Positions 18,906-34,916 of a DNA stretch of 64,000 bases are shown here, piece by piece. Source of the DNA: Catenuloplanes atrovinosus (GTDB lineage Bacteria > Actinomycetota > Actinomycetes > Mycobacteriales > Micromonosporaceae); assembly GCF_031458235.1 (NCBI RefSeq), contig NZ_JAVDYB010000001.1:2439001-2503000 (forward strand). Direction: 5' to 3'. The position numbers and the translations under genes are program-made. How positions within the stretch are numbered: position 1 is the stretch's first letter; each line of letters begins with the position of its first letter. The notes under the pieces were generated by a model. The model ran no database searches. It was not told the origin of the DNA and saw nothing but the letters and a program-made list of their open reading frames with translations.

Positions 18906-21900
18906 TCAGTCGCCGGCCAGGGCGGACCGGGGCCGGGCCGGCTCGGGGACGCCCAGCCGGTCGAACTCCGCCTGGGCACGCCGCCCGTAGTGCGCCGCCG
19001 CCTCGGCGTCGCCGTCGGCCCGGGCCGCCTCGGAGAGCCCGGCGAGCGCGCGCGCCACCTCGATCCGGTAGCCGATCTCCGAGGCTATCCGGTGCGCGTC
19101 GGTGTGCAGACCGAGCGCGGTGCCGGGCCGGCCGTGGTGCCGGTAGACGTCGCCGACCGTGTTCCGCACGGACGCCTGCCGGACCGGGGCGCGGGCGCCC
19201 TCGTCCTCCTCCAGCGCCCGCCGCGCGTGCCGCAGCGCCTCGGCCGGGCGGCCCAGCCCGTGGTGGGCGCGGGCCAGCAGCGCGTGCATGCGGGCCATCT
19301 CCGCCGCGGGCAGCGCCGCCGCGTCCGTCTCCAGCGCGCGGTCCAGGCAGCGGTGCGCCTCGTCCGGTTCCTCCTGCGCCAGGTGGATCGCGGCCAGGTC
19401 GGTCAGCGCCAGCGCCAGCACGTCCCACGCGCGGATGCCGTGACTGAGCTCCACCGCGTCCCGCGCCGCCGCGGCCGCCTCCGGGTAGCGGCCCCACTGC
19501 TCGTACAGCCCGCTCAGGTCGATCAGCGACTCGGCCTGGGCGCGCCGCTGGCCGAGCTCGCGCTTCAGCGCCACCGAGCGGCGCAGCGCGGGCAGCGCCT
19601 CCGGGTACCGGCCCAGCGTGGCCAGCAGCAGCCCGAGCATGCCGGTGCTCCGTGCCTCGCCGATCCGGTCGTCCACCGCGACCGCCAGTTCCAGGCTCTC
19701 CTCGGTCGCGGCCAGGCCGTCACCGAGCCGCCCCAGCCGCCAGTCCGCGGCCGCCACGTCCGAGAGGTTCTGCGACAGCAGCGACTCGTCCCCGACGCTG
19801 CGGGCCGACGTGACGCCGAGGCTCGCGGTCCGGTGGAAGTCGTCGAACCGGCCGCGGGCGTCCAGCACGTTCGCCGCGGTGTGGGCCAGCTCGGCCGCGT
19901 GCCGGTGCGCGCCGGAGTGCTGCGCCAGGTTCGCCGCCTGCACCAGGTTGTCGACCTCCCGGTGCAACCACGCGCGGGCCACGGCACGGCCGGTCAGCGG
20001 CGGCAGCGCGACCGCGGGACGGGACTCGGCGGCCCGCGTCCACCAGCCCGGGAACGCCTCGGCGCAGGCCAGCTCCGAGGCGGCGCGGTAGTACCCGAAC
20101 AGCCGCTCCACCGCGGCGTCCCCGGCACCGTCCCGGTCGCCGTCGCGCGCCCGGATCCACTGGGCGAAGCTGCGCACCAGGTCGTGGAACGCGTATCGGC
20201 CCGCCTCGTGCTGCTGCAACAGGTGCGTGTCGAGCAGGAACTCCAGGATCTCCTCCGCGCGCGCCGGGCCGGTGCCGAGCAGCGCCGCGGCGGAATAGCG
20301 GTCCAGGTCCGCGCCGGGATTGCGGCCGAGCAGCATGAACGCGGTCCGGTACGGTGCGGCCAGCCCGTCGTACGACAGCGTGAGGTTCGCGGTGACGCTG
20401 CGATCCCCGGCCTTGAGTTCGTCGAGCCGCCGGGTCTCGTCGCGCAGCCGGTCCACCAGGTGCCGCACCGTCCACCGCGGGCGGTTGCGCAGCCGGGCCC
20501 CGGCGATGCGCAGCGCCAGCGGCAGGTGCCCGCAGAGGTCGATCAGCTCGGCGATCGCGTCCGGCTCCCGCTCGGCGCGCTCGCGGCCGAGCATGGCGGC
20601 CATCATCGCGGCGCCGTCCTCCTCCGGCAGCATGCCCAGCGAGACCCACTCGGCGCCGTCCAGCTCGACCAGACGGGTCCGGCTGGTCACGATCACCAGC
20701 GTGTCGGCGGAGCCCGGCAGCAGCGGCAGCACCTGGCGGCTGTCGGCCACGTTGTCCAGCACCAGCAGCAGCCGGTATCCGGCCACCTGGCTGCGCCACA
20801 TGGCCAGCCGCCCGGCCGTGTCCTCCGGGATTCGCTCGCCGGGCACGTCCAGCATCCGCAGCAGTGTGCCGGCGACCGCACCCGGCGGCAGCGGCTCCTC
20901 GCCGGGCGTGTGCCCACGCAGGTCCAGGTGGAGGTGCGCGTCGGGATAGCTGTCCGCCAGCAGGTGCGCCATCCGGATCGCCAGCGACGTCTTGCCGCTA
21001 CCGCCCATGCCGTCGATCGCGACGATCCGCGGGCTCCAGCCGGGGCCGTGCGCCGGGCCCGGGCCACGCTCGCCGGTACGGCGGCCCGCGCCGTCGACCA
21101 GCCGGGCCAGCTCCTGCTGCCGGCCGGTGAAGTCCGGCAGGTCGTACGGCAGCGTGCACGGATGACGGCCGGGCGCGTCGTGGCGCGGCCCGGGCACCGC
21201 GCGCACCGGCGGACCGGCGGCGGCCAGATCGGGGCTGTTGCGCAGGATCGCCTGGTGCAGCTCGGTCAGCCGCTCGCCCGGGTCGACGCCCAGCTCGCCG
21301 GCCAGCAGCGTGCGCAGCCGGTCGTACTCCACCAGCGCCTCCGCCGGGCGGCCGGAGCGGTAGAGCGCCAGCATCAGCTGCCCGCGCAGCGTCTCCCGGA
21401 ACGGGTGGTCGTTCACCAGGTACCGCAGGTCCCCGACCAACTCGGCGCTCTCGCCGAGGCGCAGCCGCAGCTCGTAGAAGCGCTCGGCCGCGACCATCCG
21501 GCGCTCCTCCAGCGCGGCGGAGGCGGCCTCGATCTCCGTGCCGCCGGCGCCGGCCAGCACCGGGCCGCGCCACAGCGCGAGCGCGTCCCGCAGCGCTTCG
21601 ACCGCCGGGGCCGGGCGGCCCGCGTCGGCCTCGTCCTGGGCGCGGCGCACCAGGTCGGTGAAGATCGTCAGGTCGAGCTGGCCGGGGCCGAGCACGATCC
21701 GGTAGCCGGGGCCGTCCGTGACGATCAGCTTTCGGCCGCCGGGGATGCGGCCGCGCAGGCCGGCCACCGCCTTGCGTACCTGGTGGGCCGCGGTGGCCGG
21801 TGGGTCGTCGCCCCAGGCGGCGGTGACCAGGCGGTCGACGGTGATCACGCGGCCGGGGGAGAGCAGCAGGCAGACCAGCACCCGCTCCGGCACCGGGCCG

Positions 21901-21989
21901 CCGAGCGGGATGAGCTCGCCGTCCGCCGTGACGCACTCCAGGCTGCCGAGGATGTTGAACCGAACCGAAGCCTCGTCGGTGTGCGCCAA
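18906..21989 (-). CDS. SARP/AfsR-type transcriptional regulator (BTAD, NB-ARC, TPR)
   Basis: A 1027-residue multi-domain activator. OmpR-type winged helix (about 8-100), bacterial transcriptional activation domain (about 105-255), NB-ARC-like ATPase with P-loop DGMGGSGKTS (326-335) and LLLVLDNVAD Walker B, then a C-terminal TPR array to the end. AfsR-like proteins of this build regulate secondary metabolism and respond to nucleotide state or phosphorylation. TTG at 21989 is preferred: GAGGAGG lies 9 nt upstream and the domain then begins normally. The longer frame from 22061 also begins with TTG and has no good ribosome binding site. It may regulate a local pathway; the target is unknown. Confidence 0.88.
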   Translation of the reverse strand: MAHTDEASVRFNILGSLECVTADGELIPLGGPVPERVLVCLLLSPGRVITVDRLVTAAWGDDPPATAAHQVRKAVAGLRGRIPGGRKLIVTDGPGYRIVLGPGQLDLTIFTDLVRRAQDEADAGRPAPAVEALRDALALWRGPVLAGAGGTEIEAASAALEERRMVAAERFYELRLRLGESAELVGDLRYLVNDHPFRETLRGQLMLALYRSGRPAEALVEYDRLRTLLAGELGVDPGERLTELHQAILRNSPDLAAAGPPVRAVPGPRHDAPGRHPCTLPYDLPDFTGRQQELARLVDGAGRRTGERGPGPAHGPGWSPRIVAIDGMGGSGKTSLAIRMAHLLADSYPDAHLHLDLRGHTPGEEPLPPGAVAGTLLRMLDVPGERIPEDTAGRLAMWRSQVAGYRLLLVLDNVADSRQVLPLLPGSADTLVIVTSRTRLVELDGAEWVSLGMLPEEDGAAMMAAMLGRERAEREPDAIAELIDLCGHLPLALRIAGARLRNRPRWTVRHLVDRLRDETRRLDELKAGDRSVTANLTLSYDGLAAPYRTAFMLLGRNPGADLDRYSAAALLGTGPARAEEILEFLLDTHLLQQHEAGRYAFHDLVRSFAQWIRARDGDRDGAGDAAVERLFGYYRAASELACAEAFPGWWTRAAESRPAVALPPLTGRAVARAWLHREVDNLVQAANLAQHSGAHRHAAELAHTAANVLDARGRFDDFHRTASLGVTSARSVGDESLLSQNLSDVAAADWRLGRLGDGLAATEESLELAVAVDDRIGEARSTGMLGLLLATLGRYPEALPALRRSVALKRELGQRRAQAESLIDLSGLYEQWGRYPEAAAAARDAVELSHGIRAWDVLALALTDLAAIHLAQEEPDEAHRCLDRALETDAAALPAAEMARMHALLARAHHGLGRPAEALRHARRALEEDEGARAPVRQASVRNTVGDVYRHHGRPGTALGLHTDAHRIASEIGYRIEVARALAGLSEAARADGDAEAAAHYGRRAQAEFDRLGVPEPARPRSALAGD

Positions 21990-22199
21990 CCGCGCCACCC
22001 TCCTCTCCCGTGCCACGGAGCCCACGGCGTCCACGGTGGACGATAGCTCGAAGTAGAGCAATCCGTAACAATGCGTGGTCTGGAAGACATGCCGGTGAAC
22101 GGTCGACCTCGGGAGCGGTGGCGGTATCGGAACGGGAAGGCATCGGTAGGCGTGGTCGCGACGCTACCGACGATCACAGCCGAACACCGGGGAGTGACG

Positions 22200-22745
22200 A
22201 TGAGATTCCAGCTGGACCGGACGTTCCGCGACCGGCCGCAGCCGCACCGGGCCGACGCCCACCGCGCCTACTGGCGCCGGCGGTCCCTGCACGGATGGAC
22301 CTGGGCGGACACGCCGGGGGAGACGCTGATCGTGGAGGCGCACGACCGGGCCGCGCTGACCGGGCTGCTGGCCGGCGACCCGTACACCCGCGCCGGCCTC
22401 GTGACGCACACCGCGGTACGCCCGCTGGGCGAGCCGGTCACCACCCCCGACCGGACCCAGCCCCACCCGGTGCGAGACGACCGGTCCCGCCCGCCGGTAC
22501 GCACCATCTCCTCCCGCCCGGACCGGCTCAGCCCGCACGAGTGGCGGGTCGCCCGGATGATGCTCGACGGCCTCACCAACCGGCAGATCGCGGACCGGCT
22601 CGCGGTGTCCCCGCGCGCGATCGAACAGCACATCACCCGCATCTACCGCAAACTGTCCATCGACCGCCGCGCCCAGCTCGCCCTGGCCCTCCACGGCCAC
22701 CCCGGCGAGCCGTCCCCGGTCCGCGGCGGCACCGTCCCACGCTGA
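22200..22745 (+). CDS. YCII-like domain fused to LuxR-type helix-turn-helix
   Basis: A 181-residue regulator-like protein. Residues about 1-80 resemble a YCII (ferredoxin-like alpha/beta) domain, including GETLIVEAHDRAALTGLL and the family DPYTRAGLV motif with its conserved Asp. A proline-rich linker follows. The C-terminus is a LuxR/GerE helix-turn-helix: LSPHEWRVARMMLDGLTNRQ, then the recognition helix around SPRAIEQHITRIYRKL. ATG at 22200 follows GGGGAG with 5-nt spacing. Divergent from the BTAD regulator. The combination is unusual: the YCII part may sense a small molecule (inference). Confidence 0.75.
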   Translation: MRFQLDRTFRDRPQPHRADAHRAYWRRRSLHGWTWADTPGETLIVEAHDRAALTGLLAGDPYTRAGLVTHTAVRPLGEPVTTPDRTQPHPVRDDRSRPPVRTISSRPDRLSPHEWRVARMMLDGLTNRQIADRLAVSPRAIEQHITRIYRKLSIDRRAQLALALHGHPGEPSPVRGGTVPR

Positions 22746-23048: not shown

Positions 23049-23825
23049 CTACAGCAGTGATCGGCTCGCGCCACCGTCGACCGGGAGGACCACGCCGGTG
23101 GTGCTCGCGGCCAGCGATGAGGCGAGGTATGCGGCCGCGGCGGCGATCTCGTCGGGTTCCGCCGGGCGGCCGAGGGGGATGTCGGCGCTGAGGCCGGCCA
23201 GGCCGCCGTCGAGTCGGTCGGCCCAGGCCTGCAGCGCGGGCGTGCGGGTCATGCCGGGCGCCAGGACGTTGACCGTGACCGCGCGTTCGCCGGCCTCCGC
23301 CAATTCGTGGACCAGGGATTTCGCGTAGCCGACGATGGCCGGGCGGACCGTGTTGGACAGTGCCAGGCCGGGGATGGGCTGACGGGCGGCGAGCGAGGTG
23401 TTGAAGATGATCCGGCCGTAGCCGGCGGCGCGCATGCGGGGCAGCGCGGCGCGGGTGAGCGCCACGGCGGAGAGCAGGTGCAGGTCCAGCGCGGCCCGGT
23501 AGTCGGCGAGGCCGAAACGGTCGGCGCCGCCCTCCGGCGGGCTGCCCGCGTTCGCGACGACCACGTGCGGGCCGCCGTGGGCGGTGGCGATCTCGTCGAC
23601 CCAGGCGGACACGGCGGTGTGGTCGGTCACGTCGAGCGTGGTGCCGTGGGCCGCGCCGTGCGCGAGCTCCTTCAGCTCGCGCACGGCGTCGCGCAGGCGG
23701 TCCGGGTCGCGGCCGCAGATCGCGACCGTGGCGCCCTCCCGGGCGAGCCGGCGGGCGATGGCCAGGCCGATGCCGCTGGTGGCGGCCGCGACCATGGCGG
23801 TGCGGCCGTGCAGTCCCAGATCCAC
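23049..23825 (-). CDS. Atypical short-chain dehydrogenase/reductase
   Basis: A 258-residue Rossmann protein. The cofactor motif is TSGIGLAIA (about 15-23), followed by CGRDPDR and NAG (VVANAGSP). Where classical SDRs carry YxxxK, this sequence reads LSNTVRPAIVGYAKSL, so the catalytic Tyr is missing in the expected register, while Ser in NTSLAAR remains. A subgroup of FabG-like SDRs shows this pattern. GTG at 23825 follows TGAGGGGGCAC. Last gene of the carrier-protein operon, 9 bp after the permease gene. It may reduce a ketone of the product or act as a non-classical reductase. Confidence 0.82.
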   Translation of the reverse strand: MDLGLHGRTAMVAAATSGIGLAIARRLAREGATVAICGRDPDRLRDAVRELKELAHGAAHGTTLDVTDHTAVSAWVDEIATAHGGPHVVVANAGSPPEGGADRFGLADYRAALDLHLLSAVALTRAALPRMRAAGYGRIIFNTSLAARQPIPGLALSNTVRPAIVGYAKSLVHELAEAGERAVTVNVLAPGMTRTPALQAWADRLDGGLAGLSADIPLGRPAEPDEIAAAAAYLASSLAASTTGVVLPVDGGASRSLL

Positions 23826-23834
23826 CGTGCCCCC

Positions 23835-25094
23835 TCAGGCGGTCGCGGCGTCGAGGGAGCGGGCCCACACCCGGGCGCCGCCGAGGGCGGCGATGCCGAG
23901 CAGCAGCGGTACGAGCAGCGCCCAGCCGCTGAACAGCAGCACCACGCCCATCACGCCGGCGGCCACGACCGCGCCCCACCAGACCGCGGAGCCGCGGGGC
24001 AGCAGCCACGCGCCGGCCACCAGGCCGGCCACGGTCACCGCGATGAAGCAGGCGGACGCGGCCAGCATCACCTGGGCCAGCGGCGTGCCGAACGTCAGCG
24101 CGACGGCGCTGACCAGCGCGCTCAGCACGAACAGCAGTGCCAGGCTGCGGTGCGGCACCCGGCCCGGCTCGTGGCCGGGCGCGAGCGCGGCGGGCAGCAT
24201 GCCGTCGCGGGCCAGGGCGGCGCCGAGCCGGGACGCGCCGGCCAGGTACGCGTTCATGGTGCCGAACGTGAGCAGCATGGCCATCGCGGCGGTGAGCACC
24301 GCGGCGACCGGGCCGAGGCCGTGCTCCAGCAGCAGCGTCAGCGGCGCGGCGCTGCCGGCCAGCGCCGGGCCGAGCACCAGCACGCTGGTGGCGGCCAGGC
24401 TGAGGTAGAGCACGCCGACGACCAGCAGCGTGGCCACCGTGACCCGGGGCAGGTCGCGCCGCGGGTCACGGAACTCGCCGGACAGGTGGGTGACCGCCTC
24501 CCAGCCGGCGAAGCTGAAGAACAGCAGGCTGGCGGCCTGGCCGACGGCGAGCCAGCCGTGCGGCGCGAACGGCGTCAGGTTCGCGGTGTCCGCGGCCGGC
24601 AGCGCGATGACCACGGCGACCGCGAGCAGCACCGCGAGCGCGCCGACCAGCACGAGCTGGATCCGGCCGGACAGCCGCAGCCCGGCCGCGTTGCTGGCGA
24701 ACGCGGCGAGCAGCAGCACCGCGGCCACGGCGAGCGCGGTACGGTCGCCGTGGCCGAGCGTGTGCGCGACGTACTGGCCGCCGACGTAGGCGGTGGCCGG
24801 CGCACCGGCCGGCAGCGCGAAGTAGAACCAGTACCCGACCGCGGCGGACGCGCGCGGCCCGAACGCCCGGGACACGAACGTCGCCACGCCACCACTGTCG
24901 GGGTAGCGCGCGCCGAGCGCGGCGAACGTGGCCGCCACCGGCACGCAGAACAGCAACAGCGTGAGCCAGGCCAGCAGCGACGCCGGTCCGGCGGCGTCCG
25001 CGGCGAGCGCGGGCAGCGCGAGGATACCGGCCCCCAGGATGGCCCCCACGTAGATGGCGGTCCCCTGCGCCAGGCCGATCCGGTGCGTGCTCAT
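23835..25094 (-). CDS. APC superfamily amino-acid permease
   Basis: A 419-residue membrane protein with about twelve predicted helices. It begins STHRIGLAQGTAIYVGAILG, the APC family motif in helix 1 (GAILGAGIL), and contains FAGWEAVTHLSGEF in the sixth helix region, typical of YjeH/amino-acid effluxers. AAGGGAG precedes ATG 25094. Located 11 bp after the transketolase gene inside the carrier-protein operon, so it probably exports the amino-acid product or takes up a precursor. Export is favoured by similarity to the YjeH layout (inference). Confidence 0.85.
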   Translation of the reverse strand: MSTHRIGLAQGTAIYVGAILGAGILALPALAADAAGPASLLAWLTLLLFCVPVAATFAALGARYPDSGGVATFVSRAFGPRASAAVGYWFYFALPAGAPATAYVGGQYVAHTLGHGDRTALAVAAVLLLAAFASNAAGLRLSGRIQLVLVGALAVLLAVAVVIALPAADTANLTPFAPHGWLAVGQAASLLFFSFAGWEAVTHLSGEFRDPRRDLPRVTVATLLVVGVLYLSLAATSVLVLGPALAGSAAPLTLLLEHGLGPVAAVLTAAMAMLLTFGTMNAYLAGASRLGAALARDGMLPAALAPGHEPGRVPHRSLALLFVLSALVSAVALTFGTPLAQVMLAASACFIAVTVAGLVAGAWLLPRGSAVWWGAVVAAGVMGVVLLFSGWALLVPLLLGIAALGGARVWARSLDAATA

Positions 25095-25105
25095 CGGTAC
25101 TCCCT

Positions 25106-26041
25106 TCAGGTCGCGGCGGGGACGCGCGCTTCGCCGCACGCTGCGAGCGCCCGCCACACCGCCGTCTCGGTCAACCCCAACTCGGTCAGGACGTCCTCGT
25201 GGCTGCCGCCGTGGCTCGGCCACCGGTCACCGGCGTCGGCGGAGCGGACCTCGCGGCCGGGCATCAGCAGCGCCAGCGCGGACGCCGTACCGCCGCCGGG
25301 CCGGTGCTCCTCCACCACCACGAACCGCTCGTAGCGCCGGGACAGCTCCGCCGCGGCCGTGCTCAGGTTCCCCCGGTCGAGGTAGCACAGGTGCGCGTGC
25401 GGCAGGTCGGGACGTTCCCGGCGGACGGCCAGGCACAGCTCGGTGCCGACCTCGCCCACGGAGACCAGGCAGACGCGGCCCGGTGCGGCGCCGTCGTCGT
25501 CCCAGACCACCGGCGGCGGCTCCTCGCCCTGCCAGGGCAGGCTCTCCGGGGCGGCGTTGCGGCCGGTCCGGACGTAGTGCGGGGCGCCGGTGCGGGCCGC
25601 GCGGCGGATCACCGCGCGCATCTCCCGCTCGCCGTACGGCGCCGCGATCGTGATGCCCGGCATCGCGGACAGCACCGCGACGTCCTCCAGGCAGTGGTGC
25701 GTGGTGCCGAACCAGGCCCCGGACACCCCGGCGTACGGCGCCACCACGGTGATCCCGGCGCCGTAGTAGCCCATGGCCAGCTTGATGCTCTCCGCCGCCC
25801 GCAGCGCGGCGAACGGCGCGAACGTGGACACGAACGGCCGGAAGCCGGCCGCGGCGAGCCCGGCCGCCATGTCGATCATGGCGCCCTCGGCGATGCCGAC
25901 GTTGAAGAACCGGTCCGGGAAGGCCTGCTGGAACGGGTGCCCGCGACCGCCGAGGTCGGCCTCCAGGCAGACGATGCGCTCGTCCTCGGCGGCGAGCCGG
26001 GTCAGCTCGTCGCGGTACGCGGCGCGGCCGGACAGCGTCAT
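25106..26041 (-). CDS. Transketolase, C-terminal subunit
   Basis: A 311-residue split transketolase half carrying the pyrimidine-binding and C-terminal domains. Landmarks are the catalytic Glu region FFNVGIAEGAMIDMAAGLA, FVSTFAPFAALRA, GTTHHCLEDVAVL and VVEEHRPGGG. With the adjacent N-terminal half it should form a thiamine-diphosphate enzyme that moves a two-carbon ketol unit. The ATG overlaps the N-half stop by 4 bp. In a LysW-type operon such a pair is the expected step that extends carrier-bound glutamate semialdehyde (known for the DADH route, inference here). Confidence 0.9.
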   Translation of the reverse strand: MTLSGRAAYRDELTRLAAEDERIVCLEADLGGRGHPFQQAFPDRFFNVGIAEGAMIDMAAGLAAAGFRPFVSTFAPFAALRAAESIKLAMGYYGAGITVVAPYAGVSGAWFGTTHHCLEDVAVLSAMPGITIAAPYGEREMRAVIRRAARTGAPHYVRTGRNAAPESLPWQGEEPPPVVWDDDGAAPGRVCLVSVGEVGTELCLAVRRERPDLPHAHLCYLDRGNLSTAAAELSRRYERFVVVEEHRPGGGTASALALLMPGREVRSADAGDRWPSHGGSHEDVLTELGLTETAVWRALAACGEARVPAAT

Positions 26042-26865
26042 CGCACGAGCTCCTTCCAGACGGCGGCGCGGGCCGCGTCGATCGTCACGTAGTGCGCGGA
26101 CGGCTTGCCCTCGACCGGGCGCACGCCCTTGCCCTTGACGGTGCGCGCGATCACGGCCAGCGGCCGGTCGGCGCCGTCCCGCGCGGGCGCCAGCGCGTCG
26201 CGCAGCGCGGCCAGGTCGTGGCCGTCCACCTCCAGGGTGTCGAACCCGAACGTGGCGAACCGGTCGGCCAGCCGGGGCAGCGGCGAGATCGCGTCCACCG
26301 CGCCGTCGTTCTGGCCGCCGTTGCGGTCCACCACCAGCACCAGGTTGCCGACCTTCTGCGCGGCGGCGACCTGGCACGACTCCCAGATCAGCCCCTCCTG
26401 CAGTTCGCCGTCGCCGGCCACCGCGATGGCCAGTCCGCCCCGGCCGGCCATCCGCCGGCCCAGGGCCCAGCCCAGCGCGTACGGCACGCCGTGCCCGAGG
26501 CTGCCGGTCGGGAAGCGCACGCCGGGCACGGCCGCGCCGGGGTGGCCGGTGAAGTGCCCGTCCGCGGCGCCGTAGCGCGGCACCGGGTCCTCGGCCAGGA
26601 TGCCGGAGACGTGCAGCGCGGCGTACAGCCCGGCGGCGGCGTGCCCCTTGCTCAGCACCACCTCCGTGCCGTCACCGGCGTTCGCCCGGTCCAGCGCCGC
26701 GATCAGGATGTCCAGCACGGACAGGCTGCCGCCGAGGTGGCAGCCGGTCGGCGACGCGGCCATGTCGATCACCATCCGGCGGGCGGCGCGCGCCCGCGCG
26801 TGCAGGTCGTCGAGGCTCGCCCGGCCGGTCCGGACCGGCGCGGGCGGCGCGAGGGTGACGGTCAC
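26038..26865 (-). CDS. Transketolase, N-terminal subunit
   Basis: A 275-residue thiamine-diphosphate-binding half. It shows GCHLGGSLSVLDIL, VLSKGHAAAGLYAAL, GSLGHGVPYALGWAL and the cofactor motif GDGELQEGLIWESC followed by DRNGGQ. GTG at 26865 follows GGAGG and overlaps the stop of the kinase-hydrolase fusion by 4 bp. Together with the downstream C-terminal half it makes one complete enzyme. Its place between the carrier-bound kinase/hydrolase and an exporter argues for a dedicated biosynthetic, not pentose-phosphate, role. Confidence 0.9.
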   Translation of the reverse strand: MTVTLAPPAPVRTGRASLDDLHARARAARRMVIDMAASPTGCHLGGSLSVLDILIAALDRANAGDGTEVVLSKGHAAAGLYAALHVSGILAEDPVPRYGAADGHFTGHPGAAVPGVRFPTGSLGHGVPYALGWALGRRMAGRGGLAIAVAGDGELQEGLIWESCQVAAAQKVGNLVLVVDRNGGQNDGAVDAISPLPRLADRFATFGFDTLEVDGHDLAALRDALAPARDGADRPLAVIARTVKGKGVRPVEGKPSAHYVTIDAARAAVWKELVR

Positions 26866-28736
26866 CGCGCACCTCCAGGGCTCCGCTCGCCCCCGCTGAG
26901 GGCGAAGAACTCCCGCACCGCCTCGCCCAGCACGCGGCGGGCGCGACGGTACTCGTCGGCGTCGAGGCGTTCGTCCCGGGTGTGGTCCAGGGCGGAGTCA
27001 CCCGGACCGTAGGCCACCATCGGCACGTCACGCCATGTGGTCGCAAGAGTGTTCATATCGGAAGTTCCCTTCTTGAGCAAGAACCTCGGCCGGCCGCCCG
27101 ACCGGGCGAACGCGCGCCCGAACGCCTTGGCCAGCACGGTGCTGCGCGGACCCGCGTGCCCGGGGGTGGCGCGCAGCACCTCGGTCCGTACGCCGTCGCC
27201 GCCGGCGTCCAGCGCGGCCGTGCGCAGCGCGTCGAGGTCCGCGCCCGGCGGCACCCGGAAGTTGAGGATGCCGACCGCGGACTGGCTGGCCGCGTCCGCG
27301 TCGCAGCGCAGGTCGATGACGGCGCTGAGCGCCTCGTCGGCCTCCTTGAGCACCGCGGCCCGGATCCGCTCCAGCGCGCCGATCAGCCGGTCCGGTGCGG
27401 AGACCGCCTGGAACCCGGCCGAGTGGCCGCTCGGCACGGTGGCGGTCACCCGCAGCTTGAACAGCCCGAAGTAGCCCAGCGTCAGCGCGCCCGCGCCGCT
27501 CGGCTCGCCGATCACGACGGCGTCGGCCGGGTAGTGGTCGCGCGCGTGGAACGCGCCCCGCGACGAGGACACCTCCTCCTCGACCGCGCCGACCACCCGC
27601 AGCCGCCAGCCGTCCGGGACCGGGGTGCCGGCCAGCACCTCCAGGAACGCGGCCAGCGAGCCCTTCGCGTCGACCGTGCCGCGGCCGTGCAGCACGGCCG
27701 GGTCCACGTCGTCCCAGCGCACCGGCCAGGTGAACGGCACGGTGTCCAGGTGGCCGAGCAGCAGCAGCGTGCGCGGGCCGGTGCCGCGCTCGGCGACCAG
27801 GTTCCCGGCCTCGTCGACGCGCGCGTCCAGGCCCCGGTCCCGGCACCAGCCGGCCAGGTAGGCGGCGAGTTCGCGTTCGTCGTACGAGACGGACGGGATC
27901 TGCGCGGCCCGGGTGAGCAGCGTCAGGTCCTCGGCGGGCTCCCGGGCGGCCCAGAACCGGGTCCACCCGGACTCCACGGCCATCGAGTGCGGGCCGGTGA
28001 TCGCCACGTCGGCCGTGCCGTCGAGGGCGAGTTCGGCGGCGCGGATCTTCTGCCGCATGCGGCCCTTCGCGTACCGCCCGCAGGTGCCGGCGTACGCGTC
28101 GCGCACGGTGGAGCCGCGGTCGGCCGGGTCGGCCAGCACGCCCGGCGTGCCGGTGACCAGGCGCAGGTGGTCCGCGCCGAGCGCGTTGGAGACGGCGGCG
28201 GCCAGCATGTCCGCGTCCACGTTGAGTTCGCCGCCGCCGGCTGCGTCGCGCACCGGCGGGCTGAGGCAGACCACGTCGTAGGCGTCGAGCAGCGCGCCGA
28301 GCCGGGCCGCGTCGACCCCGCTGACCGTACCCGCGCGGTGGTCCCTGACGATCTTGGGTTTGCCGTCCTCCACCGCGCGCAGCGGCCGGTTGAGGTCGCC
28401 GGTGACCAGGCCGCCGTCCGCGGCCACGGCGGTGAACACGCGCAGCCCGTGCGCGGCCAGCCCGGCCTCCACGGCCGGCAGCGTGATCTGCCGGTACGCG
28501 GCCACGATGTGCGGCATCTCGGTGGGCGGGCAGTAGCGGACGGTGTCGCCGTTGCCGAGCGTCAGCTGCGGCATGGCCCGGCCCAGCGACCGGTAGTGCC
28601 GCTCGATGCCCTCGGCGCCGCCGGCCACCACCAGCACGCGCGCGCCCCGGTTCCGGATCGCCGCGATCTCGGCGAAGATCTCCGGGTGCAGCAGCGTGCC
28701 GCTCCCGACCTTGATCACGTAGAGCGCCCGGGTCAT
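26862..28736 (-). CDS. Bifunctional LysW-amino acid kinase / LysW-carrier hydrolase (LysZ-LysK fusion)
   Basis: A 624-residue fusion of two enzymes of the LysW pathway. Residues 1-263 are an amino-acid kinase (ArgB/LysZ type): [41 protein letters not shown]. Residues 268-624 are an M20-family peptidase/deacylase (LysK/ArgE type): metal ligands in LLGHLDTVP (His329, Asp331), [10 protein letters not shown], catalytic EEE near 386 and GEPSGAG near 411, with the C-terminal His in [13 protein letters not shown]. The kinase would phosphorylate the side-chain carboxylate on the carrier; the hydrolase would cut the finished amino acid off. ATG overlaps the reductase stop by 4 bp. First and late steps fused in one chain is unusual. 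Confidence 0.88.
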
Positions 28737-29773
28737 GGCGTCACCGCCGTGAACGGCAGCGCCAGCGACGGCGCGAAGCCGTACACCGTGTTCAGCGCCT
28801 GCACGGCCTGACCGGACGCGCCCTTGATCAGGTTGTCCAGCGCGGCCACCGCCACGTACTGGTCGCCCTCCACGCTCACCGCGACCTCCGCCACGTTGCT
28901 GCCGACCACGCTCTTGAGCATGGGGAAGTCGGCGGGGGTACGCGCGGCGCCGCGGAACCGGACGAACGGGGTTCGCGCGTACGCGGTGCCGTAGGCGCGC
29001 TTGACGTCCTGCGCGGACACGCCCGGGCGCAGCCGGCCGTACGCGGTGACCACGATGCCGCGCGCGACGTCCAGGCTGTACGTGGAGAAGCGCAGCCGCG
29101 GCGCGGTGCCGGCGAAGTCGCCGAGCGCCTGGGTGATCTCCGGCGCGTGCCGGTGACCGTACGGTTTGTGCACCCGGAAGTTGCCGATCCGGTCCGCCGG
29201 ATGCTCCGCGGAGCGGCTCCCGCCCCCGCTGGCCCCGGTCTTCGCGTCCACCACCACGTCCTCGGTGGCCAGCCCGGCGGCGAACAGCGGCTGGAGCGCG
29301 TACAGCGTGGTCACCGCCATGCAGCCGGGCAGGTTCAGCAGCCGCTCCGGCACCGGTGACGCGCTGAACTCCGGGACGAAGTATCGGAACGGCTCGGTCC
29401 ACGACGCCGACTCCGGGTAGTGGACCGCGGCCTGGGCGGCGTCCCTGAGCCGGAAGTCGCCGGCCAGGTTGATGATCCGCCCGGCCCGCTCGGTGAGCTT
29501 CGGCAGTTGCGCGGGCAGCGCGCCGCCCGGCAGGCAGCCGAACGCCACGTCCACCTCGTCGCACGCCTCCAGCGGCCGGAACCGCAGCCCGGCCGCGCGC
29601 GGGTGGTTGCGCACGCCGGCCAGCACCGAGGAGACCGGCCGGCCGCTGTGCCGCTCGCTGGACAGGTAGGACAGCTCGACGTGCGGGTGGTCCAGCAGCA
29701 GGCGCACCAGCTCCGCGCCGGTGTACCCGCTGGCGCCGAGGACCGCGACCCGCACCTTCTCCTGCTCAGCCAA
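28733..29773 (-). CDS. LysY/ArgC-type acyl-phosphate reductase
   Basis: A 346-residue NADPH-dependent semialdehyde dehydrogenase of the N-acetyl-gamma-glutamyl-phosphate reductase family. Rossmann motif VLGASGYTGAELVRLL at the N-terminus, catalytic Cys in NLPGCMAVTTLYAL and the HRHAPEI His motif. In this setting the substrate is the carrier-bound acyl phosphate made by the kinase of the next gene, giving carrier-bound semialdehyde. TTG at 29773 overlaps the aminotransferase stop; the ribosome binding site is GAGAGGG at rather long spacing, so the start is somewhat uncertain. Confidence 0.9.
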   Translation of the reverse strand: MAEQEKVRVAVLGASGYTGAELVRLLLDHPHVELSYLSSERHSGRPVSSVLAGVRNHPRAAGLRFRPLEACDEVDVAFGCLPGGALPAQLPKLTERAGRIINLAGDFRLRDAAQAAVHYPESASWTEPFRYFVPEFSASPVPERLLNLPGCMAVTTLYALQPLFAAGLATEDVVVDAKTGASGGGSRSAEHPADRIGNFRVHKPYGHRHAPEITQALGDFAGTAPRLRFSTYSLDVARGIVVTAYGRLRPGVSAQDVKRAYGTAYARTPFVRFRGAARTPADFPMLKSVVGSNVAEVAVSVEGDQYVAVAALDNLIKGASGQAVQALNTVYGFAPSLALPFTAVTP

Positions 29774-31085
29774 GGCGGGCCGCCCTCTCGTAGGGCCGGC
29801 GGTACTCCCGCTCGGCGACGAGCTTGCGGATGGCGTCCGGGCGCGCGGCGACCTTGCGGAACGCGTCGGCGTAGCGGATCACGCGCTCGTACTCGACCGG
29901 GGAGCGCAGCTCGCGGCAGAGCACCACGGTGCTCTCCAGCATCGCCACCACGTTCGGGAAGTCGGCCGGCTCGTGGTCGCGGACCGCGTCCGGGTTCAGC
30001 GTGAACGGGTAGCCGTTGCCGAACCCGTCCCGCCGCCGGAACGGCAGGTGGCAGGGGATCGGCGTGTTCTGCCACTCGCGGGCCGGCACGCCCTCCGCGG
30101 TCAGCAGCTCGTGCACCGCCTGCTTGACCGCCCAGACCGGCAGGTCGTCCAGGCCGGCCGCGGCCGGGTTCAGCCCGATCCGGTACATGTTGTACGCGTG
30201 CACGTGCCCGTCCGGCACGTACGGCGCGGTGAACAGCCCGGTCGTGGCCAGCGCCTCGCCGAGCACGGCCGCGTTGCGGGCGCGGACCGCGTCGTAGTAC
30301 GGCAGCCGCTTGAGCTGCCCGGCGCCGAACGCCGCGGCCACCCACGACATCCGGTAGTCGATGCCGGTGCGCTCCAGGAACTCCGTCGCCCGGCCGTACG
30401 CCTCGTCCGTGGCGAAGAACGCGATGCCGCCCTCGCCGCCGAGCGGGAAGTTCTTGTCCGCCATCAGGCTCTGCCCGGCGGCGTCACCCAGCGAGCCGCA
30501 CATCCGCTCGCCGATCCGCGCGGAGTGCGCGTGCGAGGCGTCCTCGACCAGCGCCAGCCCGTGCCGGTCGCAGAGCCGCCGCAGCGCGGCCACGTCGGCG
30601 GGCAGGCCGTGCACGTGGACCGGCATGATCGCCCGGGTGCGCGGCGTGATGGCCTTCTCCGCCGCCTCCGGCGACATGCAGTACGTGCGCGGGTCGATGT
30701 CCACGAAGACCGGCACCGCCTTCGCCGCCACCACGGCCTGCGCGGTCGCGATGAACGTGAACGCGGGCACGATCACCTCGTCGCCGGGCTGCACGCCCGC
30801 GCCGATCAGCGCCAGGTGCAGGCTGGACGTGCCGCTCGCGGTGGGCAGCGCGTGCCGGGCGCCGACGTAGGCGCGGTACTCCTCGGCGAAGCCGTCCACC
30901 ACCTTCTCCGGGCTGGTGCGCTGCGCCACCATCATGGTGAACACGTCCTCCTTGGTGATCACCGGGAAGATCGTGCGGCGCATCGCGCGCGGAATGACGG
31001 CCGGGCCGCCGAACTGGGCGAGTTCGGCGTCGACGTCCCGCTCGTCGGGCAGCGGGAGCGGAGCCGACGGGAAATCCGTGATCAT
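29766..31085 (-). CDS. DegT/DnrJ/EryC1/StrS-type PLP aminotransferase
   Basis: A 439-residue fold-type I aminotransferase. It shows ASGTSSLHLAL, GDEVIVPAFTFIATAQAV, VEDASHAHSA (PLP Asp) and the Schiff-base Lys in MADKNFPLGGEGG. The family usually aminates nucleotide-linked or cyclic keto sugars. In the carrier-protein operon it is the best candidate for transaminating the ketone left by transketolase, a role filled in LysW lysine synthesis by the unrelated class III enzyme LysJ. ATG overlaps the preceding gene (a truncated relative) by 4 bp. Confidence 0.88.
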   Translation of the reverse strand: MITDFPSAPLPLPDERDVDAELAQFGGPAVIPRAMRRTIFPVITKEDVFTMMVAQRTSPEKVVDGFAEEYRAYVGARHALPTASGTSSLHLALIGAGVQPGDEVIVPAFTFIATAQAVVAAKAVPVFVDIDPRTYCMSPEAAEKAITPRTRAIMPVHVHGLPADVAALRRLCDRHGLALVEDASHAHSARIGERMCGSLGDAAGQSLMADKNFPLGGEGGIAFFATDEAYGRATEFLERTGIDYRMSWVAAAFGAGQLKRLPYYDAVRARNAAVLGEALATTGLFTAPYVPDGHVHAYNMYRIGLNPAAAGLDDLPVWAVKQAVHELLTAEGVPAREWQNTPIPCHLPFRRRDGFGNGYPFTLNPDAVRDHEPADFPNVVAMLESTVVLCRELRSPVEYERVIRYADAFRKVAARPDAIRKLVAEREYRRPYERAARLG

Positions 31086-31717
31086 CGCGGGTTACCTCCG
31101 GTCACTGCGGGCGTACGGGAACCGGCCTGCGCCAGCGCCATCCGGACACAGGCGGCGACCAGCGGGCTCAGCCGGTAGTTGAACTGGACGCCCGGCGCCA
31201 GGCCGGGCTCGGCCTCCTCCTGCGTCCACATGGTCCGCAGGTCGAAGGCGCCGAAGATCTTCAGCCGCTCGGCGCGGGCCCAGATCCGCTCGTCGTCGGT
31301 GAGCATCGCCGCGGCCGGGCCGAAGCCGAGGCCGGTCAGGTCCACGGCCAGCGCCGGCGCGGTCTGCCGGCGCGCCGCGCCGGCGAACTCGGCGGCGTTC
31401 TCCGGGGTCAGGCTCAGCAGCGCGAACGCCGGGTCGGTGCCGTCCGTGCGGCGGACGCCGAGCCAGGAGACGAAGCGCTCCGCCGCCGGGTCCAGCTCCG
31501 GCAGCGCGGCGGCGTCGCCGTGCCCGATGCCCTGGCCGCAGAGCGCGGCGTGGATCGCGGCGGTCCGGCTGTTCACCAGCACCGCGTGCGCGCGCCCGCT
31601 CTGCCTGGTGAGCCACCGCGACAGCGCCGGCAGCTCCTTGTCGTTCTTCTCGATGCTCATCACCACGCCGGACGTCAGCACCCGGGTGAGCACGAGCGCG
31701 GTGTCGAACTGATCCAT
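31082..31717 (-). CDS. Truncated DegT-like protein lacking the PLP lysine
   Basis: A 211-residue protein that looks like a shortened relative of the neighbouring aminotransferase. SRTAAIHAALCGQGIGHGD aligns by eye with SGTSSLHLALIGAGVQPGD, and NYRLSPLVAACVRMAL with the DYRMSWVAAAFGAGQL region. No segment equivalent to DKNFPLGGEGG is present, so it should not be catalytic. It may be a partner subunit or a carrier-protein docking factor. The ATG follows GGAAAGGAAG; coupled by overlap to the full aminotransferase. The relationship is my own visual alignment. Confidence 0.6.
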   Translation of the reverse strand: MDQFDTALVLTRVLTSGVVMSIEKNDKELPALSRWLTRQSGRAHAVLVNSRTAAIHAALCGQGIGHGDAAALPELDPAAERFVSWLGVRRTDGTDPAFALLSLTPENAAEFAGAARRQTAPALAVDLTGLGFGPAAAMLTDDERIWARAERLKIFGAFDLRTMWTQEEAEPGLAPGVQFNYRLSPLVAACVRMALAQAGSRTPAVTGGNPR

Positions 31718-31733
31718 CGGGGCTTCCTTTCCG

Positions 31734-31767
31734 CGGCCGCCCGCCCCGCGACGGGGGCGGGCGGCCG
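31734..31767. terminator. Strong intra-operon hairpin between ligase and DegT-like genes
   Basis: Perfect 14-bp GC stem (31734-31747 with 31754-31767) and 6-nt loop in the only sizeable gap of the operon. Read leftward no T-tract follows, and the next ribosome binding site starts about 6 nt away. It could attenuate, stabilise or process the mRNA. Confidence 0.55.
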
Positions 31768-31795
31768 TCGTAGAGATGTGGGGGAGGTGCCGGGC

Positions 31796-32677
31796 TCAGC
31801 CGGCGAGGACCATCCCGGACCGGACGACCGACGCCGCGTACGCGGCGCAGTGCGCGGCCACGTCGACGCCGTGCACCTCGGACGAGCGGGCGAACTCGGG
31901 GTTCGCGTTCACCTCGAGCACCGCCAGCTCGCCGGTCGACCGGTTCTCGAGCAGGTCCACGCCGTAGAAGCCGGGACCGAGCGCGGACACCACGTCGGCA
32001 CAGAGACCGTCGATGTCCGGCGTGATCTCGGCGCGCTCGACCCGCGCGCCGAGGTGGGTGTTGGTCCGCCAGTGTGCGCTGCGCCGCCGGAACGCCACCA
32101 CCGGGCGTTCACCCACCACGACCACGCGCAGGTCGTGATCGGGCTTGTCGACGTAGCGCTGCACCAGGACCGGGAACAGCTTGCCCGCCGCATCGGCGGA
32201 CTCGCGGCCCCCGGTCCACGCCTCCAGCTCGCCCTCGCTGGACAGCCGGGTCACGCCGCGGCCCCAGGAGCCGGACGGCGGCTTGACCACGACCGGCCAG
32301 CCGAGCTGCTCGACGGCGTCGCGGACCTGTTCGTGGGTGAACGCGTGCAGGGTGGCCGGGTGCGGGATGCCGTGCCGCGCGAAGAGCAGCGCCTGCAGCC
32401 CCTTGTCGCCGCACACCTCGATCGCGGACGCCGCGTTGACGGTGGCGATCCCGGCGCGTTCCAGCAGGCGCGCGGTGCTCAGCGCCTCCCGGTGCGACAG
32501 GTTCCGGATCCAGGCGAGCGTGGGCGGGGTGTCCCGCCGGGCCAGCACCCCGGCGAGGTCGGGCGGGAGCACGGGCTCGGCGGAGAGCCCCTGGGCGCGC
32601 AGGGCGTCCAGGAGCCGCCGTTCCTCGGGGCGCAGCACCGTCACCGACAGCAGTACATCGGTGGCCGCGCCGGTCAT
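31796..32677 (-). CDS. lysX: LysX-like ATP-grasp carrier-protein ligase
   Basis: A 293-residue RimK/LysX-family ATP-grasp ligase. Features: IEVCGDKGLQALLFARHGIP, the ATP-binding VVKPPSGSWGRGV loop, LVQRYVDKPDHDLRV, the LysX-typical WRTNTHLGARVE and metal site LEVNANPEF. It should join the alpha-amino group of glutamate (or a homologue) to the gamma-carboxylate of the carrier's last Glu. The ATG overlaps the carrier gene stop by 4 bp, as expected for the LysW-LysX pair. Whether glutamate or aminoadipate is loaded cannot be read by eye. Confidence 0.9.
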   Translation of the reverse strand: MTGAATDVLLSVTVLRPEERRLLDALRAQGLSAEPVLPPDLAGVLARRDTPPTLAWIRNLSHREALSTARLLERAGIATVNAASAIEVCGDKGLQALLFARHGIPHPATLHAFTHEQVRDAVEQLGWPVVVKPPSGSWGRGVTRLSSEGELEAWTGGRESADAAGKLFPVLVQRYVDKPDHDLRVVVVGERPVVAFRRRSAHWRTNTHLGARVERAEITPDIDGLCADVVSALGPGFYGVDLLENRSTGELAVLEVNANPEFARSSEVHGVDVAAHCAAYAASVVRSGMVLAG

Positions 32678-32865
32678 TCGCCCCAGTCCTCCTCCACCTC
32701 AGGCGCCAGCGCGACCTCCGGCCGGTCGTCGGTCCTGCCGATCAGCTCGTGCTCCTGACCGCAGGCCGAGCACTCGATGATCTCGCCCTTCTCGGCGTCG
32801 CCGTCGACGGTGAGCGGGCTGTCGCAGACGAGGCAGACCACGGCGTTGTCGGCGATTACCGGCAT
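32674..32865 (-). CDS. lysW: LysW-type amino-group carrier protein
   Basis: A 63-residue acidic carrier with a zinc ribbon (CLVC near 14-17 and CSAC near 33-36) and the diagnostic C-terminal EDWGE. The terminal Glu side chain is the attachment point for the substrate amino group in this family. Best single marker that the operon is a carrier-protein pathway. AAAGGATGA stands 5-7 nt before the ATG. The gene heads the operon; 115 bp separate it from the amidohydrolase gene on the same strand, where a promoter probably lies. Confidence 0.95.
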   Translation of the reverse strand: MPVIADNAVVCLVCDSPLTVDGDAEKGEIIECSACGQEHELIGRTDDRPEVALAPEVEEDWGE

Positions 32866-32980: not shown

Positions 32981-34438
32981 TTACGGGAACAGCCGCAGCG
33001 GTACGTCCGCCGCGCGGAACAGGTGGTCGCGCGAGGCCTCCAGCTCCGCGCGCAGGCGGCCCAGATCCGCGTCCAGCAGCGCGCCGCGCCACTTGCGGAC
33101 CCGGCCGGCGACGATCACGGTCTCCACGTTGGTACGGTCCATCAGCGTCACCACCGCGCCCGGCGCGCTGTTCATCGGCGCGACATTGAGCGCGGTCGCG
33201 TCGAGCAGCACGATGTCGGCCTCCTTGCCCGGCGTGAGCGAGCCGGTGCGGCCGCCCAGGCGCAGGTGCTCCGCGCCGTTGCGGGTGGCGAAGCGCAGCA
33301 CGTCGCGGTCGAGCAGCAGCGGCGGCGTGCCCGGCGCGGGCGTCGGCCAGAAGTTCTCCGGCGTGAGGTCGCCCTGGTCGAAGACGAGCTGGTTGACCAG
33401 CATGCGCTGCATCGTCATGGTGGACCGCATCAGCGTGAACGGGTCCGCGGCCATGGTGGTCTCGACGTCGGAGCTGAGCGACGGCTCCATGCCGAGCTCC
33501 TGCATGCGCAGCAGCGGCGGCGTGCCGTGCCGCATCGCCATCTCGATCGGCACCGCGAGCGACACCCCGACGCCGGCGTCCCGGGCCGCGCGCCAGACCT
33601 CGTCGGAGACGTGCACCATGTGGATGAGCAGCACGTCCGGGCCGAGCCCGAGGTCCCTGCCCGCGCCTCCGGTGCCGCGGGCCAGGTCCTCCAGCGCCGG
33701 CCGCATCATGATCGAGAACGCGTGCGCGGCGATCAGCAGGTCCAGCTCGCGGGCGATCGCCCAGGTGGCGCTGACCGCCTCCGGGCCGGCCGCGACCTCG
33801 CCGCCCATCGCCATGGTCAGCAGCTGGTCGTCCGAGGAGAAGTACCGCTCGCGGAGCCGGTACGCGTCCTGCGGGAAGCGGGACTCGGCGCGGCCGTCGC
33901 CCGCCCAGTAGCCGAACGCGGACCGGGCACCGGCGTCGGTCAGCGCCTGGACGGCCGCGTCGCTGTGCTCGGGCGTGTGGTGGATCTGCGAGGTGTCCAG
34001 CACCGTGGTGACGCCCGCGTCCAATTGGGACAGCCGGCCGTACAGCATGTTGATGTGCACGTCCTCCGGCCGGTAGACGGGCGAGAACCGGCCGATGATG
34101 TGGTCCATGTAGGACGGGTCGGCGCTCGGCGAGCCGGATCCGTCGTTGATCAGCAGGCCGTTCGGCAGGAACGAGCGCAGGCCGGTCTCGAACAGGTGGT
34201 GGTGGGTGTCGACGAAGCCGGGCATGACCACCCGGCCGCGCGCGTCGATCACGTCCGCGTCCGGGACGTCGAGCCCGGGGCCGACCGCGACGATCCGGCT
34301 GCCGTCGACCAGCACGTCCGCGGCCTCGAAGTCCCCGACGGCCGGGTCGAGGGACATCACGGTGCCGCCGCGGATGACGTAGCGGCGCCCGGGCCGTCCG
34401 GTGTCCGCGGGCGGGGTGGCCGGGAAGGTGTCTGACAC
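32981..34438 (-). CDS. Amidohydrolase family protein (cytosine/triazine deaminase-like)
   Basis: A 485-residue metal-dependent hydrolase of the TrzN/SsnA/cytosine-deaminase-like group. Metal ligands are visible in VDTHHHLFE (HxH near 78-80), a His in LIHMVHVSD, and Asp in LSSDVETT. The N-terminal beta-sandwich begins YVIRGGTVMSLDP and the C-terminal part has GSLTPGKEADIVLLD. GTG follows GGAGGACGAAC. It lies directly upstream of the lysW operon on the same strand; it may deaminate or hydrolyse a related compound but could be unrelated. Confidence 0.85.
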   Translation of the reverse strand: MSDTFPATPPADTGRPGRRYVIRGGTVMSLDPAVGDFEAADVLVDGSRIVAVGPGLDVPDADVIDARGRVVMPGFVDTHHHLFETGLRSFLPNGLLINDGSGSPSADPSYMDHIIGRFSPVYRPEDVHINMLYGRLSQLDAGVTTVLDTSQIHHTPEHSDAAVQALTDAGARSAFGYWAGDGRAESRFPQDAYRLRERYFSSDDQLLTMAMGGEVAAGPEAVSATWAIARELDLLIAAHAFSIMMRPALEDLARGTGGAGRDLGLGPDVLLIHMVHVSDEVWRAARDAGVGVSLAVPIEMAMRHGTPPLLRMQELGMEPSLSSDVETTMAADPFTLMRSTMTMQRMLVNQLVFDQGDLTPENFWPTPAPGTPPLLLDRDVLRFATRNGAEHLRLGGRTGSLTPGKEADIVLLDATALNVAPMNSAPGAVVTLMDRTNVETVIVAGRVRKWRGALLDADLGRLRAELEASRDHLFRAADVPLRLFP

Positions 34439-34496
34439 GTTCGTCCTCCAGAGGTAGGTGAGTTCACCCCCCCAGACGGATCGCGCGGACGCCGGT

Positions 34497-34916
34497 TCAC
34501 ATCGGCCCGGCGGCGGCGCCGCGCGCCACGACCCCGCACAAAACCGCCATGACCAGCGCGTACGGCCCCCAGAAGTACCGTTCCCAGGGACTCGACGACG
34601 CGATGTTCATCACGCTGCCGACGACCAGCAGCCCGCACAGCGCCCAGACGGCCCACCGGGTCACCGCGCCGGGCAGGGACAGCGGGCCGAGCCCGGCGTG
34701 GCTGAGCACCAGCGTCGCGGCGGCGGTCCAGACCAGCAGGGACACCACGCTGGCCACCCGCAGCTCGCGGGGGAGCGTGCCGGCGTGGGCGCCGCCCCAC
34801 GCGGCCTGGCCCAGCGGCGCGCCCAGCGCCAGGGCCAGCTGGAACAGCGCGATGCCGAGCAGGCCGGCGATCGCGGCGATCGTGGCCGTGCGCTCCATGG
34901 TCGTCATGGGTCTCAC
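34497..34916 (-). CDS. Small four-helix membrane protein
   Basis: A 139-residue membrane protein with four predicted helices (about 10-33, 52-72, 82-102 and 112-133). I do not recognise a named family beyond small actinobacterial integral membrane proteins. GTG at 34916 overlaps the PadR stop as GTGA, so the pair is coupled; ATG at 34907 or 34898 is also possible. It is the likely regulated partner of the PadR repressor, a common pairing for efflux or membrane-stress functions. Confidence 0.7.
   Translation of the reverse strand: MRPMTTMERTATIAAIAGLLGIALFQLALALGAPLGQAAWGGAHAGTLPRELRVASVVSLLVWTAAATLVLSHAGLGPLSLPGAVTRWAVWALCGLLVVGSVMNIASSSPWERYFWGPYALVMAVLCGVVARGAAAGPM

Follow-up and report, generated by a model that had tools for sequence, protein, structure and literature searches.

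The question raised by the 64,000-nucleotide stretch of the Catenuloplanes atrovinosus genome analysed here (contig NZ_JAVDYB010000001.1, positions 2,439,001 to 2,503,000; hereafter the window) is what is made by an operon of ten genes, at positions 23049-32865 of its minus strand, built around a LysW-type amino-group carrier protein (AmCP). The answer that we consider probable is that the operon encodes an AmCP pathway to a non-protein amino acid, in which a two-subunit aminotransferase (AT:D2) would carry out the amination that leads to a seven-carbon (C7) acid of the diamino-dihydroxy-heptanoic acid (DADH) type, to be altered by a short-chain dehydrogenase/reductase (SDR) and exported. Comparison of sequences supplies the identities of the genes, a gene fusion, a conserved block, a residue swap between AT and D2 and the homology of these two proteins to one solved complex.

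The genes run in the order LysW, LysX, D2, AT, LysY/ArgC, LysZK, TKN, TKC, permease and SDR. LysW (32674-32865, 63 residues) is a zinc-ribbon protein with four Cys and a C-terminal Glu, in EDWGE, and is the sole match to PF21344 (41.3 bits, cut-off 27) in the host genome, a single 8.9-Mb contig (C1); the NCBIfam LysW models match it with scores below their curated cut-offs. Among the 95 LysW relatives found, four Cys are present in 91, and the ending is EDWGE in 69, ETWGE in 22 and ESWGE in one. The LysX-type ATP-grasp ligase (31796-32677, 293 residues), of the type that loads an amino acid on the carrier, has solved LysX-type homologues and matches TIGR02144 at 226 bits (below the cut-off of 275.6) and TIGR00768 at 208 bits (above the cut-off of 143.4). 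D2 (31082-31717, 211 residues) is a degenerate DegT-fold subunit in which the segments with the pyridoxal phosphate (PLP) lysine and the PLP-binding Asp are deleted and FNYRLSP is conserved, and AT (29766-31085, 439 residues) is a catalytic DegT aminotransferase subunit with Lys211, Asp182 and an Asp243 that replaces the usual Asn. The LysY/ArgC-type acyl-phosphate reductase (28733-29773, 346 residues) exceeds the TIGR01850 argC cut-off (258.7 versus 233.6 bits) and is a second copy beside the canonical argC. LysZK (26862-28736, 624 residues) is a LysZ-LysK fusion of a kinase (residues ~1-252) and an M20 carrier hydrolase (~265-618), with PF00696 and PF01546 in one open frame; its homologues among solved structures are the [LysW]-lysine hydrolase 5xoy and the kinase 3wwm, and the NCBIfam LysZ and [LysW]-lysine hydrolase models match it below their curated cut-offs. 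The two halves of a transketolase follow, N-terminal (TKN, 26038-26865, 275 residues, matched by PRK05899 over residues 15-264) and C-terminal (TKC, 25106-26041, 311 residues, with the pyrimidine-binding domain PF02779 and PRK05899 over residues 4-165), then an APC-superfamily amino acid permease (23835-25094; PF13520, with PRK11021, an L-methionine/branched-chain amino acid transporter, as best named model at 208 bits, below its cut-off of 284) and an atypical SDR (23049-23825), recognised by SDR models, in which the catalytic Ser is kept and the Tyr and Lys are changed to Ser and Arg.

All the enzymes of a carrier system (LysX, acyl kinase, reductase and carrier hydrolase) are present, the kinase and hydrolase being fused and several equivalog models being matched below cut-off, and the two-part transketolase and Fic25-like DegT aminotransferase are features of AmCP/DADH pathways. 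A preliminary description of this locus had named the carrier, LysX, LysY/ArgC, LysZ, LysK, a split transketolase, a DegT aminotransferase, a permease and an SDR; every one of these genes was found, although LysZ and LysK proved to be a single 624-residue open frame and D2 had been overlooked. Its statement that nearly all junctions are 4-bp overlaps is right as to the tight packing of the genes but applies to only five of the nine, the others being one 8-bp overlap and gaps of 9, 11 and 78 bp. A promoter scan gave no sigma-70-like site, and the three terminator-like sites (1.2 expected) are every one inside a gene.

In these alignments the aminotransferase appears to be split between a working half, AT, and a helper half, D2. 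The best match of AT is chain A of 8Y96 (E 4.5e-168), followed by Fic25 (8gyh, E 5.6e-72), which has been solved with an N2-acetyl-DADH adduct, and D2 matches chain C of the Serratia heterooligomeric aminotransferase (E 5.8e-50). The two matched chains belong together in single PDB entries (8Y96, 8Y97 and 8Y98), and 'heterooligomeric aminotransferase' stands in the titles of 8Y96 and 8Y98. At AT position 243 Asp is found in 73 of the 74 D2-type rows, the remaining row being a gap, versus Asn in the same column of 23/23 other carrier-cluster aminotransferases; Asn is found in 73 of the 74 D2 rows, and the PLP lysine in none. In the counts of 73 of 74, two genomes enter twice (L108 and L119 appear to be L056 and L048; loci are numbered L, genomes G), L036 and L038, with D2 matches inside their ATs, are placed in the non-D2 group, and the first row of alignment A2 is without its initial Met. 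As in 8Y96, a catalytic and a degenerate chain are encoded by adjacent genes, with the Lys in one chain only and the motif Asn in the other only; a paper cited alongside this residue swap gives Lys215 and Tyr229 as supplied by the partner subunit. D2 and AT are adjacent in 68/68 D2 loci, which were themselves found with D2, so that constant association with D2 is an independent result only for the LysW-found loci of the family, where D2 adjoins each of the five D2-type ATs and was detected next to none of the 23 other ATs. A split aminotransferase is not new in kind, a structure having already been deposited. In a phylum sample of 396 genomes, AT was matched at E 1e-60 or better in only three, of which one is the window's own and the other two are 38-40% identical.

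The conservation of the operon was followed first within the family and then across bacteria. Of 300 family genomes examined, 36 have a LysW match, and among the five listed from the same genus the window's own is the only one with a match; the loci of the 35 other LysW-bearing genomes were compared with the window by tblastn. Five of them (L048, L056, L062, L064 and L068) contain the window block, D2 included, at 57-90% identity. A fused LysZK and an SDR are found in L059, L063 and L066, where AT and D2 were not detected, and also in the hybrid L035, the other genes of which resemble those of ordinary clusters; 25 loci are ordinary carrier clusters (~31-48% identity, some genes not found in some), and L069 is unplaced. 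In the 30 non-D2 loci the kinase and hydrolase are apart in 22 and fused in four, with one match missing in four. The nearest family relative of the block, L068 (G120; 80-90% identity), looks decayed, its hydrolase match ending early and no transketolase half being found.

A search of the genome collection with the D2 alignment yielded 68 loci (two of which seem to be the genomes of two family loci) from Streptomyces, Kitasatospora, Nocardiopsis, Saccharothrix, Actinoallomurus and other Actinomycetota, from Paenibacillus and other Bacillota, and from Chromobacterium, Chitinimonas, Kosakonia and Enterobacter. The eight genes LysW-LysX-D2-AT-LysY-LysZK-TKN-TKC, encoding nine domains, lie in the same order in 64 of these 68, in Actinomycetota, Bacillota and Pseudomonadota, and because this order recurs the operon is not a chance arrangement. 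In three of the remaining four loci the contig breaks off at D2 or immediately before it, and in L153 (Enterobacter sp. EA-1) LysW was not found; the block genes of L153 match in several pieces, as in a frameshifted, decayed or poorly sequenced locus. LysZK is fused in 72 of 73 D2-type loci (frame open in 67, sole stop at the end in five more), with L153 as the exception. These comparisons mark the operon as a clear-cut and seemingly intact example of a carrier-protein variant that is widespread and, within the searches made, poorly described.

The genes beside the block vary. An L-amino-acid ligase (at least 60% identical to the G007 enzyme) is present in 25 of the 68 loci, and 31 others have a ligase-like gene of weak similarity, which follows the block in 28 and precedes it in three, all five sampled proteins of these kinds having a LAL_C2 domain; gene set U441 is found in three, a permease with an SDR in six, a permease or an SDR alone in two, and in one, at a contig end, nothing was seen. 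L150 shares the SDR and has a ligase match (30%) upstream of its block. The window belongs to a smaller, permease-SDR branch together with Streptomyces sp. S465, CoH27, S. gossypii, S. bohaiensis and S. spiramenti, whose permeases are 79-81% and SDRs 67-77% identical to those of the window. Also conserved in position and orientation in these five Streptomyces clusters is a divergently oriented LuxR/GerE-domain gene (22194-22745, plus strand; PF00196; 41-59% identical over the matched part), which probably encodes a regulator of the cluster. Beside the ligase or MFS genes of other D2-type clusters lie conserved proteins of 447 and 441 residues (L070:17362-18705 and L074:14749-16074) with no Pfam match.

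From this gene set we infer the following pathway, and with it every reaction, glutamate as the substrate, a C7 product, the action of the SDR and outward transport. LysX would join glutamate to LysW, and the kinase part of LysZK together with LysY would convert the side-chain carboxylate to an aldehyde, which the split transketolase would lengthen by a two-carbon ketol unit to a chain of seven carbons with hydroxyls at C5 and C7 and an oxo group at C6. The two-subunit AT:D2 would then aminate C6, with AT contributing the lysine and PLP machinery and D2 the Asn that AT has lost, after which the hydrolase part of LysZK would free an amino acid of the 2,6-diamino-5,7-dihydroxyheptanoate type; the SDR would modify the released acid and the permease export the product, under control of LuxR. 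Precedent is offered by azinomycin, for which N-acetylglutamate is described as being activated, reduced to the semialdehyde, lengthened by two carbons through a transketolase and transaminated to DADH, with glutamate carried by an AmCP mentioned, after vazabitide, as a possible alternative (PMC9570651). Glutamate would be the likelier starter because LysY passes the argC cut-off. A LysX tree, proposed in the preliminary description as a means of telling glutamate from aminoadipate specificity, is divided by a 99* branch that separates the ligases of the window, of the D2-type loci and of three encapsulin-like clusters from those of the ordinary carrier clusters of the family and from Thermus LysX, 5k2m and 3vpb (the roots of this tree and of the LysZK tree are midpoints); it does not decide between the two substrates. 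In agreement with the earlier statement that the locus is without a non-ribosomal peptide synthetase (NRPS), neither an NRPS nor a sulfotransferase was found with Pfam or NCBIfam among 36 of the 56 predicted window genes, the other 20 being of at most 345 residues and the genome beyond the window not having been scanned.

Several observations weigh against this pathway. The LysX motif, TNTHLGA, is intermediate between those of Thermus LysX (TNTARGG) and 3vpb (ANVALGG); the kinase half of LysZK scores best with an aminoadipate kinase model; and the NCBIfam models for LysW, LysX, LysZ and the [LysW]-lysine hydrolase all fall below their curated cut-offs. The product and the reactions are deduced from the genes, and the permease, although the E. 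coli member of its family exports, could import instead. Finally, AT and D2 went undetected in the clusters that combine an encapsulin-like gene with this family of SDR, and the substrate of the SDR is therefore not necessarily a product of the 2,6-diamino type.

This last point leads to the rival that survives best, unlikely as we consider it: that amination at C6 is not the fate, or not the sole fate, of the transketolase product, and that after release its 2-amino group closes on the 6-ketone to a ring imine which the SDR reduces, giving a 5-hydroxy-6-hydroxymethylpipecolate-like acid. The SDR of the window is 45-48% identical to those of four encapsulin-like and two ordinary carrier clusters, and its altered catalytic residues (Ser kept, Tyr to Ser, Lys to Arg) recur in the SDRs of its own branch, in these four and two loci and in a 30% identical SDR near L120, two other nearby SDRs (L036 and L065) having the usual motif; the pattern is not new, because the Thermotoga SDR 1o5i shows a similar one in the alignment. 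The four loci in question, L059, L063 and L066 (G119, G283 and G042) and L035 (G210), each have a fused LysZK, a gene with a weak HK97-capsid match, a sulfotransferase family gene and the atypical SDR, and AT and D2 were not detected there. They look like natural product encapsulin clusters, the Family 3 label being drawn from weak capsid matches (E between 1.3e-4 and 7.8e-4 with phmmer; in 3/3 proteins, Pfam capsid families with E of 0.0015 or weaker) and gene content. One study reports AmCPs, SDRs and sulfotransferases in Family 3 encapsulin clusters and a Myxococcus cluster of this family that makes peptides with 6-chloromethyl-5-methoxypipecolic acid (PMC8346489). In the LysZK tree the four loci nest inside the actinobacterial D2-type clade (100/99*), which suggests that a D2-type cassette that lost AT:D2 is the probable ancestor of the encapsulin-like clusters, or at any rate of their LysZK and SDR; the side of the tree that joins the SDR branch with them has support of 75/91, below the starred level, and the SDR group there includes L086 (contig end) and L068 (decayed), whose tails are unseen. 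In L035 the LysZK groups with the D2-type clade and the LysX with ordinary clusters. Against the pipecolate route, the window operon retains an intact AT:D2 pair, and AT and D2 occur together in all 68 D2 loci, most of them without an SDR at least 50% identical to that of the window. A Pfam-less gene beside the sulfotransferase in G119, G283 and G042 had been considered as an aziridine-forming enzyme, a candidate dropped on account of its weak capsid matches and now read as the encapsulin-like gene; upstream of LysW in G119 lie CysD/CysN-like genes and a gene like the 2-oxoglutarate- and iron-dependent oxygenases.

A second rival has the released amino acid coupled to another to form a dipeptide, the likely outcome in those clusters that bear a ligase, with the ligase supplied here by a gene elsewhere in the genome. 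We regard this as quite unlikely here. Ligases or weakly similar genes accompany the block at most of the other loci, as counted above, and the host genome holds a partial ligase match (34% identical) at C1:2641841; this match, however, is ~170 kb away and covers only residues 73-319 of 417, the scanned proteins of the window operon include no L-amino-acid ligase, and the five Streptomyces permease-SDR clusters have none in their fetched flanks. Still less probable is 2-aminoadipate as the starter, with a carrier-bound product one carbon longer (C8), to which the Thr-Asn-Thr of the LysX motif, as in Thermus LysX, and the best kinase match, to aminoadipate kinase, would point; LysY, however, lies over the argC cut-off, no match in the host genome exceeds the homocitrate synthase cut-off, and AT is related to Fic25, the enzyme solved with the DADH adduct.

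A primary pathway to arginine or lysine, whether working or vestigial, was rejected as highly improbable. Such pathways do use LysW, LysX, LysY, LysZ and LysK, but the genome has a canonical argC (365 bits) together with argB (255 bits, at 1354932) at C1:1352678-1355648 and a diaminopimelate-type lysA (476 bits) at 8719621, there is the homocitrate synthase result, LysW is confined to the minority of family genomes noted above, and the operon also has a transketolase and AT:D2. The operon is not the only source of argB/argC or lysine genes in its genome, and the view taken in the preliminary description, of a carrier-plus-transketolase pathway for a secondary metabolite and not for simple lysine or arginine synthesis, is supported.

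The AT:D2 pathway to a DADH-type acid may be extended to a wider picture, which we put forward tentatively and hold to be more doubtful than the pathway itself. An eight-gene cassette that has spread horizontally would use an obligate split aminotransferase to make, on the carrier, a single C7 diamino acid not yet described, and the window would stand for the branch of this cassette that exports an amino acid. There the SDR lacking the usual Tyr and Lys would convert the released acid to a free amino acid that is new, probably cyclic, and secreted unchanged, and the encapsulin-like clusters would have arisen from this lineage by loss of AT:D2 and gain of the capsid and sulfotransferase genes. 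No HK97-fold capsid gene was found in the 36 window proteins scanned, and the capsid-like protein of G119 was unmatched in the host genome, a weak negative, as distant capsids could escape. That eight genes keep one order in three phyla while their tails are exchanged points to a single building block that many bacteria put into different end products, and the quickest way to isolate this building block may be through the permease-SDR branch. The gene set also allows tests of active-site sharing in the split aminotransferase and of channelling by the fusion of the second and last carrier enzymes, and the cassettes together offer a test of how capsid-bearing biosynthetic clusters arose.

Adjoining the cluster is a large regulator of the BTAD/NB-ARC/TPR type (18906-22061, minus strand; Pfam), possibly a second regulator, with relatives at 33-46% identity in four other D2-type loci and three encapsulin-like regions, although the protein type is a common one. 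On the upstream side, an amidohydrolase (32981-34438), a gene of 136 codons and a PadR gene (region 32981-35440) were rejected as members: nothing equivalent adjoins the block in relatives from this branch, and the 68 loci gave a single weak match to the amidohydrolase (26%, L152). Elsewhere in the window, two overlapping adjacent plus-strand genes (16798-17469 and 17466-18599) each partly match tryptophan 2,3-dioxygenase and possibly encode another split or two-subunit enzyme. A minus-strand gene (60557-61567) encodes a haem-oxygenase-like iron-containing redox enzyme (PF14518), a type frequent in natural product pathways, and a plus-strand gene (9349-12285) a protein of 978 residues with a NACHT N-terminal helical domain 7, proteins with which are often tied to defence.

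With respect to known systems, a search of open-licence literature, limited in its cover of subscription papers, brought up none recognised as dealing with the cluster, its product, 8Y96 or the products of ligase-type D2 clusters. The link to vazabitide-type pathways made in the preliminary description stands as to the logic of AmCP plus transketolase, but among solved aminotransferases the two-subunit enzyme of Serratia comes nearest, with Fic25 after it. With the DADH pathways of azinomycin, ficellomycin and vazabitide the window shares a two-part transketolase, a Fic25-related DegT aminotransferase and the carrier logic reported for vazabitide; it differs in its fused LysZK, its D2, its own SDR and permease and the lack of an NRPS or sulfotransferase among the window proteins scanned, and the likeness to vazabitide and azinomycin is one of description, not of sequence. 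The aminotransferase of Serratia sp. ATCC 39006 (8Y96, 8Y97, 8Y98), which comes from another phylum and is compared here by PDB titles and alignments alone, has GLDYRMS in chain A and QFNFRLSP in chain C, that is, the same residue swap. The ligase-type D2 clusters of Streptomyces, Paenibacillus, Chromobacterium and others have the same core block in the same order, but in them a ligase or ligase-like gene and, where sampled, an MFS transporter replace the permease, SDR and LuxR genes. Family 3 encapsulin clusters with an AmCP, finally, resemble the window in their LysZK, which is fused and falls in its clade, and in the atypical motif of their SDR, and differ from the window in their capsid-like and sulfotransferase genes and in that AT and D2 were not detected in them.

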